A stretch of DNA of 64,000 bases. Source: Alphaproteobacteria bacterium (GTDB lineage Bacteria; Pseudomonadota; Alphaproteobacteria; Caulobacterales; Caulobacteraceae). Positions within the stretch are counted from its first letter, which is position 1, and every line of letters begins with the position of its first letter. Positions 35,107 to 44,692 of this stretch are shown one piece after another. The notes beneath the pieces are model-generated. The model did not search any database, had not been told where the DNA came from, and was given only the letters and a program-made list of their open reading frames with translations. The position numbers and the translations under genes are program-made. Location: assembly GCA_018820205.1 (NCBI GenBank), contig JAHJOK010000059.1, positions 62,001 to 126,000 of the forward strand, in the 5' to 3' direction.

Positions 35107-37388
35107 CGGCGGAACCCGCCAACGGTATCACCATCCTCCCGGCGCGGTCCGGTTCGACCCCGCCGGCGAACGACATTGCCAATGATTCCGTATCGCCGTC
35201 GGCTCCACAGCCGGCGGCGAAACGCATTCCGGTCCTGCGCCAATTCGAGCTGATCGAGGCGGTCAAGGCCTATGACCCCACCGCCGACGAGGCCCTGCTG
35301 AACCGGGCCTATGTCTATGCGATGAAGATGCACGGCTCGCAGCTACGCGCCTCAGGAGACCCCTATTTCGCCCATCCGATTCAGGTCGCCGGCATTCTGA
35401 CCGACTACAAGCTGGATACGGCGACCATCGTCACCGCCCTGCTGCACGACGTTGTCGAGGACACCTCGGCGACCCGCGACGACATCGCCCGCATGTTCGG
35501 CGAGGAGGTCGCGGTCCTGGTCGAGGGCGTGACCAAGCTGAGCCGGCTGGAGCTTCAGGCCGAACACACGCGTCAGGCCGAGAACCTGCGCAAATTCATC
35601 CTGGCCATCAGTCGTGATGTGCGGGTGCTGCTGGTCAAGCTGGCGGACCGTCTGCACAACATGCGGACGCTGAAATACGTCAAGCCGGAGAAACGCGAGC
35701 GCATCAGCCGTGAGACGCTGGAGGTCTATGCGCCGCTGGGCCGGTCGATCGGCATCCATTCCATCGCGTCCGAGCTGGAAGAACTGGCGTTCGAGCATCT
35801 GAACCCCACGGCCCGCACCGCCATCGAGCGGCGGCTGGAGGCGCTGAAGCTGGAACACGGCCACGCGACCGATGTCGTCTCCGCCGACATCCAGCAGGTT
35901 CTGAGCGAGGCGGGCATCCAGGCGCGCGTCTATGGCCGCCAGAAGACGCCCTATTCGATCTGGCGCAAGCTGCAACGCAAGTCGGTCGGCTTCTCGTCTC
36001 TGGCCGACATCTATGGGTTCCGTGTGCTGGTCGATGCAGAGGACGACTGTTATCGGGCTCTTGGCGTCATCCATCGGACTTGGCCGATGGTGCCGGAGCG
36101 GTTCAAGGACTTCATCTCCACGCCCAAGTCGAACAACTACCGCTCGCTGCATACCACGGTCGTCGGCCCCGGCGGCCTGCGGATCGAGATGCAGATCAGG
36201 ACCGAGGCGATGGACCGGGTCGCCGAGGACGGCGTCGCCGCCCACTGGGCCTACAAGAACCAGTCGTACGGTCTGGATCACGAGGCGATGGCCCACGACG
36301 GCGGCCGCGACCCGCTGCAGAACCTGCGGCACCTGGTTCAGGTGATCGAACACGGGGAGGGGGGCGAAGACTGGGTCGAACACGCCAAGCTGGAGATGTA
36401 CCTTGATCAGGTCTTCGTCTTCACGCCGAAGGGCGCCCTGATCACCCTGCCGCGCGGCGGGATGGCGCTGGATTTCGCGTATGCGGTCCACACCGAGGTC
36501 GGGGACACGGCCGTGGGCGTCAAGATCAATGGCGAACTGAAGCCGATGCGCACCGCCCTTCAGAACGGCGACGTGGTCGAGGTCATTCGCGGCAAGAAGC
36601 GCGAGGCCCCGGCCGACTGGCGCAGCCTGACCGTGACCGGGCGCGCTCGATCGGCGATCCGCCGGCATATTCGATCCTCCGAGCGCGACGAGTTCCAGAA
36701 GCTGGGCAAGACCACGCTGGAACAGGCGATGACGCGGGCCGGAAAATCGCTGGCGGATGTCTCGCTGAAGGCGGCGGTGGAGACATTGGCCACCGGCACG
36801 CAGGAAGACCTGTTCGACGCCGTCGGCCGGGGCCGGCTGGCCGCCAACAAGGTGGTCGAAATCCTGTTCCCCGCGCTGCAGGGCACGTTGTCGTCGGGGC
36901 CGGGCCGCAAGAAGATAGGCGACGCCCAGGCGCGGATGTTCGTGCGCGGCGGCGGGCTGACCCCCGGCGTCAGCATCCATTTCGGCGCCTGTTGCACCCC
37001 GGTGCCGGGCGACCGCATCGTCGGCATTCTTGAGCCTGAAAAGGGCCTGACCGTCCACGTGATCGACTGCCAGCGTCTGGCCGATTTCGCCGATGACGAC
37101 AGCGTCTGGCAGGATCTTCAGTGGACGGCGGAGGCCGAACAGGGCGCGGTCGGCACCGCGCGGCTGCATGCCACCCTCCAGAACGCGCCCGGCGTCCTGG
37201 GTCAGGTGGCGACGGTGATCGGCGAGGCCGGCGGCAATATCCTGAACCTGCGCATGGCCCACCGGCAGCATGACTTCTTCGACATGGACCTGGACGTCGA
37301 GGTGGCGGATGCAAAGCATGCCACCAGCATCATCGCCGCCCTGAGGGCGAACCCGAACGTGGATACGGTGGAGCGGTCGAGGGGGTGA
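35103..37388 (+). CDS. spoT: Bifunctional (p)ppGpp synthetase/hydrolase (Rsh, SpoT-type)
   Basis: Rsh makes and degrades (p)ppGpp. Domains in order are: HD hydrolase ([21 protein letters not shown]), RelA/SpoT synthetase ([13 protein letters not shown]), TGS ([14 protein letters not shown]), and a C-terminal ACT ([19 protein letters not shown]). Both catalytic regions look intact. The track starts at ATG 35322, inside the helix before the HD domain. The frame is open upstream to CTG 35103, 7 bp after GGAGG, with no ATG, GTG or TTG in between. That start gives 761 residues with the expected N-terminal [14 protein letters not shown] segment. The CTG start is inferred. Confidence 0.88.
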
Positions 37389-37402: not shown

Positions 37403-37442
37403 TTGACAAGAACAAAAGGCAAACATAGAACATTTCCGGAAC
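37403..37442 (+). promoter_or_regulatory. LexA-controlled promoter of sidA-like ORF and dnaE
   Basis: TTGACA (37403-37408), a 17-bp spacer and TAGAAC (37426-37431) form a promoter. A perfect alphaproteobacterial SOS box, GAAC-N7-GAAC, at 37428-37442 overlaps the -10. A weaker second box (GAAC-N7-AAAC, 37410-37424) fills the spacer. LexA bound here would block RNA polymerase directly. Confidence 0.8.
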
Positions 37443-37463
37443 ACGCAATCTGGGGATAAGACG

Positions 37464-37553
37464 ATGACTAGGGTGGTTCGTGAGGCGCTGTCGCTTGCAT
37501 CGTGCGGCGGGTTTGTCTGGATGGTGTGGCAGGTCGCCCTGCTGGCGAGATGA
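37464..37553 (+). CDS. sidA: 29-residue membrane peptide, SidA-like SOS division inhibitor
   Basis: This ORF is too short for the track. ATG 37464 follows GGGGA by 7 bp. The 29-residue product has a positively charged start (MTRVVRE) and one hydrophobic helix with two tryptophans (about 8-28). It lies directly behind the LexA-controlled promoter. Its stop overlaps the dnaE start (ATGA). From established knowledge, Caulobacter SidA is a 29-residue, LexA-regulated inner-membrane peptide that stops division by acting on FtsW/FtsN. Matching length, topology and regulation make this the likely homolog. I have not compared the sequences directly. Confidence 0.75.
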
Positions 37554-43747: not shown

Positions 43748-44692
43748 ATGGCCGAGATCACCGCCGCCCTCGTCATGGAACTTCGCGCCAAGTCCGGCGT
43801 CGGCATGATGGACTGCAAGAAGGCGCTTCAGGAAAACGACGGCGACATCAACGCCGCGATCGACTGGCTGCGCGCCAAGGGCCTGTCCAAGGCCGCCAAG
43901 AAGGCTGACCGCGTCGCCGCCGAGGGCCTGGTCGCCGTGGCGTCCAAGGAAGAGGGCAAGGGCGAGATCGGCGCCGCGATCGAATTCAACGCCGAGACGG
44001 ATTTCGTCGCCCGCAACGAACTGTTCCAGAACGCCGCCAACGCCTTCGCCGCCCGCGCGCTGGAGCATGACACCGTCGAGGCCCTGCACGGCGCCACGCT
44101 GGAGAACGGCAACACCGTCCAGGACGAGATCACCAACATGATCGCGACCATCGGCGAGAACATGCAACTGCGTCGCGCCGCCCGTCTGTCGGTCGACGAA
44201 GGCGTCGTCGCCTCCTACGTCCACAATGCGGTGGCGCCGGGCGTCGGCCGCATCGGCGTGCTGGTCGCCCTGCACGGCGGCGGCGACAAGACGGCCCTGC
44301 GTGAACTGGGCCGCAAGATCGCCATGCACGTCGCGGCCACGGCGCCCCTGTCGCTGAATACCGACGACCTGGACCCGGCCGCCATCGAGAAGGAACGTCA
44401 GGTTCTCACCGAAAAGGCCAAGGAAGAGGGCAAGCCGGAAAACATGATCGACAAGATCGTGTCGGGCCAGATCGCCAAATTCCAGAAGGACGTCGTCCTG
44501 ACGAAACAGCCGTTCGTGATGAACCCCGACGTGACCGTCGAGCAACTGGTCGCTGACACGGGCAAGGAACTGGGCGCGCCGGGCCTGCATCTGGCCGGCT
44601 TCGTCCGCCTGGCGCTGGGCGAGGGCGTGGAGAAGGTCGAGGGACCGGACTTCGCTTCGGAAGTGGCCTCGATGATCGCTCCGCAAGCTTAA
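43748..44692 (+). CDS. tsf: Elongation factor Ts
   Basis: EF-Ts recycles EF-Tu by nucleotide exchange. The 314-residue product has the N-terminal [19 protein letters not shown] domain, the EF-Tu-contacting [11 protein letters not shown] core, and the C-terminal [15 protein letters not shown]-like end. An AGGAG Shine-Dalgarno precedes ATG 43748. A terminator-like hairpin follows before pyrH. Confidence 0.97.

Follow-up and report, generated by a model that had tools for sequence, protein, structure and literature searches.

A sidA homolog behind predicted LexA operators overlaps the start of dnaE in a Brevundimonas-like Caulobacteraceae bacterium

The window, the whole stretch of 64,000 nucleotides analysed here, contains a 29-codon open reading frame (ORF) that directly precedes dnaE, the gene of the replicative DNA polymerase III alpha subunit (Table 1). 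The gene, its homology to SidA, its LexA operators, its overlap with dnaE and the selection acting on its peptide are all evident from the sequence. The frame is accordingly read as a genuine SidA homolog, the putative sidA of a Brevundimonas-like Caulobacteraceae bacterium, placed in a lineage-specific overlapping arrangement. We assign a probability of about 0.8 to the explanation as a whole, in which the SidA homolog is controlled from LexA operators and DNA damage would bring about a division block together with co-expression of dnaE. The promoter TTGACA-N17-TAGAAC, the perfect LexA box, the GGGGA, the 29-codon frame and the TGA/ATG overlap described in the initial annotation were all recovered by direct reading where it had placed them.

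Table 1 Features of the sidA–dnaE region (window positions)
Feature	Position	Strand	Basis and remarks
rsh (RelA/SpoT), upstream neighbour	35322..37388	+	14 bp separate its end from the sidA -35 element
-35 element TTGACA	37403..37408	+	read from sequence
Upstream LexA box GAACAAAAGGCAAAC	37410..37424	+	one mismatch to GAACN7GAAC; motif comparison with relatives
-10 element TAGAAC	37426..37431	+	read from sequence; overlapped by downstream LexA box
Downstream LexA box GAACATTTCCGGAAC	37428..37442	+	perfect GAACN7GAAC; sequence; -36 position conserved in genus
Shine-Dalgarno GGGGA	37452..37456	+	sequence; CTGGGGAtaag common in genus; ends 7 nt ahead of the ATG at 37464
sidA homolog, 29 codons	37464..37553	+	basic N-terminus, single hydrophobic helix; NF033228, E 5.6e-8, 32.6 bits; pN/pS 0.34; stop TGA 37551-37553
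ATGA overlap, sidA stop / dnaE start	37550..37553	+	sequence; dnaE ATG 37550-37552; in 10/41 genus members, one as GTGA
dnaE, 1165 aa	37550..41047	+	NF004226, 1439 bits; PHP, pol3_alpha, finger, HHH_6 and OB domains

The 29-residue peptide

The NCBIfam SidA model NF033228 (29 positions) matches residues 1–27 of the peptide and is its sole family match, and the frame is the only significant site for this model in the genome. The score lies 2.4 bits below the curated equivalog cut-off of 35 bits. A search across the order returned scores above the cut-off mainly from Caulobacteraceae genera other than that of the window, and just one of the genomes of the window's genus with a match exceeds it. 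The tuning of the model is thus to other genera. We file the peptide as a SidA homolog and not as a curated equivalog. The rarity with which the cut-off is reached in this genus would explain how a gene of this kind could escape annotation. In the joint alignment A1, the peptide is 48–52% identical to Caulobacter- and Phenylobacterium-type sequences. Its best 17-residue Kyte-Doolittle mean is 1.64 (identical peptide in locus L049).

The frame codes for a protein and evolves under purifying selection. Among 36 unique sequences of the genus, the in-frame pN/pS of 0.34 compares with 1.09 and 2.54 in the other two frames, and the value for 25 other Caulobacteraceae sequences is 0.39 in the sidA frame. 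Substitutions across relatives, which the initial annotation had proposed to inspect for randomness, are thus not random. Short ORFs are common, and 77 of at least 24 amino acids overlap a 7.5-kb stretch, which lends some weight to a reading in which LexA regulates dnaE and the short frame is a fortuitous one in its leader. We consider this extremely improbable, since the family match and the conserved length, start and ribosome site speak against it, and changes dominated by synonymous ones already contradict it at the codon level. A chance ORF was rejected on this codon-level conservation. The identification of the frame as a SidA homolog, made initially from its length, basic start and membrane helix, is upheld by the NF033228 match, the identity to other SidA sequences, the conserved arrangement and the low pN/pS.

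SidA of C. crescentus is a 29-amino-acid, SOS-induced inner-membrane protein that acts on FtsW/FtsN (PMC4211646). It is encoded by CCNA_02004 (PMC10769358) from an early-induced, LexA-controlled promoter (PMC12700426), and dnaE of this species is CC1926 (PMC1839093). The two peptides share their length of 29 residues, a basic start and one hydrophobic helix, and LexA-type operators are located at the promoter in both cases. The window peptide differs in falling just under the equivalog cut-off and in its C-terminal tail, QVALLAR. In the genus Caulobacter, sidA is also directly before dnaE (L020, L022–L024, L238, L239), but with a spacer, whereas in the lineage of the window the stop codon of sidA overlaps the start of dnaE. 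DidA of C. crescentus resembles SidA as a small damage-induced membrane division inhibitor acting on FtsW/I/N, but it is SOS-independent (DriD) and binds FtsN (PMC4211646). YneA, SosA and ChiZ are likewise small membrane division suppressors induced by damage, but they come from Gram-positive and actinobacterial species. We know of no linkage of any of these three to dnaE. YneA binds FtsW (PMC13396833), and in low-confidence models SidA binds one side of FtsW TM7 and YneA, ChiZ and SosA the other (PMC13396833).

Promoter, LexA boxes and the junction with dnaE

The -35 and -10 elements are separated by 17 nt, and TAGAAC fits the Caulobacter sigma-73 -10 core TANAWC. The perfect downstream box starts within the -10 element. 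The upstream box, which the initial annotation had overlooked, is located 18 bp upstream of it, in the spacer between the -35 and -10 elements. One perfect LexA box taken alone is weak evidence; five perfect GAACN7GAAC sites were seen in the window and 1.9 are expected. The boxes before sidA exceed chance because nearly all relatives have a pair of boxes in this position, spaced 17–18 bp. Such pairs, with at most one mismatch in each box, precede sidA in nearly all named Caulobacteraceae loci, and they are found near -54 and -36 in much of the genus. At -54 relative to the sidA ATG, most relatives have a perfect or one-mismatch box. An additional box, GAACATCTTGTGAAC, is located ~64 bp ahead of sidA in four Caulobacter loci (L238, L239, L022, L037), which also have two one-mismatch boxes. 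Another perfect GAACN7GAAC site of the window, at 44018–44032, falls within an elongation factor Ts-like ORF (43748–44692) and is probably fortuitous.

The genome's own lexA is located 1.2 kb beyond the end of the window on the opposite strand (G000:C58:127242–127928, L233). GAACN7GAAC-type sites lie directly before its start, which supports this motif as the operator type, and lexA is probably autoregulated. The sites just upstream of lexA are GAACACTTACAGAAC and a second box-like site. The earlier proposal of LexA control stands at the sequence level, with conserved tandem boxes and a lexA gene behind the same box type, and we infer that LexA represses sidA and that damage would induce it.

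A generic sigma-70 scan did not flag the sidA promoter because it demands a T at the last -10 position, and a generic terminator scan found no terminator between rsh and sidA. The outcome of these scans is evidence neither for nor against the sidA promoter. Because rsh ends so close to the -35 element and no terminator was found between them, read-through from rsh into sidA–dnaE is possible. The product of the downstream gene exceeds the NF004226 cut-off and is replicative DnaE, not mutagenic DnaE2. Between the overlapping ATG and the conserved domain of dnaE there is no other in-frame ATG, GTG or TTG.

The sidA gene is located upstream of dnaE in 40 of the 41 genomes of the genus: 35 were recognised by motif, G220, G216, G286 and G274 by inspection, and G272 has an inserted ORF. 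The insertion in G272 (L237) was recognised by eye as a GIY-YIG-nuclease-like ORF of ~129 aa between the two genes. In the exception, G281 (L236), sidA with both LexA boxes is beside rsh on contig C9 and dnaE is on C10. The ATGA or GTGA overlap is lineage-specific and occurs in the window and in G269, G288, G262, G243, G250, G247, G225, G282 and G259. The members of the genus without it have spacers from a few to ~300 bp.

A regulatory leader would suit the overlap, the weakness of the dnaE ribosome site in this lineage and the position of the ORF as the first gene of the unit wherever the two are linked. In that case the act of translating the ORF, and not its product, would set the translation of dnaE through coupling or attenuation, and the peptide would have no role in division. 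This is quite unlikely, because selection acts on the amino-acid sequence, the family match of the peptide is to a known inhibitor of division, many relatives have spacers of up to ~300 bp, and in G281 sidA has kept its boxes at a site apart from dnaE.

Among the Caulobacteraceae loci examined, nearly all have sidA upstream of dnaE, including named loci of Caulobacter, Phenylobacterium, Asticcacaulis and Brevundimonas. The gene upstream of sidA is rsh in the window and L049 alone among L001–L055, and also in G272 and G281; the rsh–sidA adjacency is confined to the closest relatives. A LolD-like ABC transporter gene was recognised by eye in the upstream position in several Asticcacaulis, Maricaulis, Robiginitomaculum, Tepidicaulis, Stappia and Phreatobacter loci. 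A LolD-like gene ahead of the peptide and dnaE was seen at L034, L046, L047, L053, L061, L063, L073 and L075. The sidA–dnaE pair is a unit that is kept together while its upstream neighbour varies. The initial annotation had singled out the coupling of a checkpoint peptide to the replicase gene as the most notable regulatory arrangement of the window. The basic linkage of sidA to dnaE is a general trait of the Caulobacteraceae loci examined and not specific to the window. In the comparison of dnaE upstream regions that it had suggested, the linkage is nearly universal in the genus, the overlap is found in 10 of 41 members, and the arrangement, unnoticed by the initial annotation, reaches far beyond Caulobacterales.

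The arrangement across Alphaproteobacteria

An even sampling of the class provided 80 dnaE upstream regions of 600 bases each. A forward GAACN7GAAC is present in 20 of the 80 regions, versus one of 80 for a reversed-pattern control. All 20 boxed regions, one of which (G052) belongs to the window's own genus, have a short hydrophobic-helix ORF starting 15–60 bp past the box, and the ribosome site is clear in many of them; for random anchors placed in regions without a box, the frequency of such an ORF is 17%. The motif [WFYL][VLIFM][KREQG][DE]xx[ASGL] occurs in 16 of the 20 peptides and at 0 of 3000 random anchors, but these data are also the source of the motif, so that the test is not an independent one. 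At the named loci outside Caulobacteraceae, the box is accompanied by such a peptide, except at L059. These loci include Maricaulis, Parvibaculum, Tepidicaulis, Aquisalinus, Robiginitomaculum, Amphiplicatus, a PS1-clade genome, Stappia, Pseudovibrio, Phreatobacter, Bradyrhizobiaceae and Ancalomicrobiaceae. No box was found at the dnaE loci of Insolitispirillum, Magnetospirillum, Pelagibius, Haematobacter and one Rhodobacteraceae locus.

Scored with a SidA model built from Caulobacteraceae only, 18 of 37 outside peptides reached p<0.05 over hydropathy-preserving shuffles, versus 1.85 expected. The combined p for the 37 peptides is about 5e-18, calculated from sequences that are not independent. 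The other 19 peptides have no individual significance against the shuffles and were included because of their position, operator and shared pattern. The peptide core aligns without gaps, as in the comparison of Parvibaculum VWLKDIAALVSIGAFLWVASSW with a 22-residue stretch.

A joint peptide model, A1, was searched over 387 genomes of the class, and dnaE adjoins the match in 27 of the 30 loci fetched. Nine matches are in genomes outside model-building (G647, G584, G555, G015, G650, G614, G589, G573, G674). Eight of them are directly upstream of dnaE, the ninth stops at a contig edge, and all nine have a perfect box 45–86 bp ahead of the matched stretch. Several of the nine come from families already in the model, and the G647 core is the same as that of G123; G614 and G674 represent families absent from it. 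The matches without a box or dnaE, L229 and L232, are parts of longer frames. Within several of these families, paired sequences differ almost exclusively by synonymous changes, with synonymous to non-synonymous counts of, for instance, 8 to 0, 10 to 0, 11 to 1, 7 to 1 and 8 to 0; the ratios near 0.9 in one group, f10b, are uninformative.

SidA is probably the Caulobacteraceae branch of an old LexA–micropeptide–dnaE cassette, and the neighbouring genes suggest an old gene order lolD–peptide–dnaE. We consider it likely that SidA belongs to an ancient alphaproteobacterial family of LexA-controlled membrane peptides of 26–56 residues, encoded just before dnaE and often after lolD, which has been lost or is undetected in several large groups. 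If its members are SidA-like in action, they would constitute the missing SOS division checkpoint in many alphaproteobacteria, wired to replicase supply.

Proposed mechanism and significance

In the mechanism that we propose, LexA would occupy a tandem pair of direct-repeat operators within the core promoter and keep the sidA promoter low. RecA would trigger LexA self-cleavage, and the promoter would fire. The short-leader mRNA would encode SidA and continue into dnaE; co-transcription of the two genes is expected from their geometry, and dnaE would be raised on the sidA transcript. SidA would insert into the inner membrane and hold the FtsW/FtsI/FtsN septal synthase inactive until the damage has been cleared. 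By homology to C. crescentus SidA, FtsW/FtsN is the presumed target here. A SidA-family peptide that is damage-induced and acts on another membrane complex instead of FtsW is unlikely: the score under the equivalog cut-off and the retention of just a short motif in the wider family would allow it, but within Caulobacteraceae the core differs very little from SidA of the Caulobacter type, and FtsW is encoded in the genome.

In the lineage of the window, ribosomes finishing sidA may partly restart at the overlapping dnaE ATG, and where the genes overlap, dnaE translation would probably depend in part on ribosomes leaving sidA. The division block and the replicase may thus rise jointly through translational coupling, as initially suggested. 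Coupling through the overlap is not essential for SidA, because relatives have spacers, one has an inserted gene, and G281 has sidA apart from dnaE. Joint expression is not obligatory either, because the contig with sidA in G281 lacks dnaE. The spacers in relatives and the case of G281 led us to reject coupling as a device that is always required.

Since dnaE is essential and needed without damage, a basal transcript must exist. It could arise from promoter leak, from rsh read-through or from a promoter inside sidA, and in the first two cases some SidA would always be made. The production of SidA whenever dnaE is basally transcribed, unless transcription starts inside sidA, would be a source of tension in the overlap lineage. 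Damage induction of dnaE in these species was not found in the literature searched, and neither were SidA-like LexA-boxed peptides before dnaE across alphaproteobacterial families; key older studies lie outside that search. The same literature yielded no description of SOS division inhibitors of alphaproteobacteria outside Caulobacter, and the short gene before dnaE in other alphaproteobacteria seems to have been overlooked.

The division inhibitors of the SOS response are tiny proteins, most of which lack annotation. For about a dozen families of Alphaproteobacteria, the signature of LexA box, peptide and dnaE supplies candidate inhibitors, and it raises the question of why a putative division brake stays beside the replicase gene.
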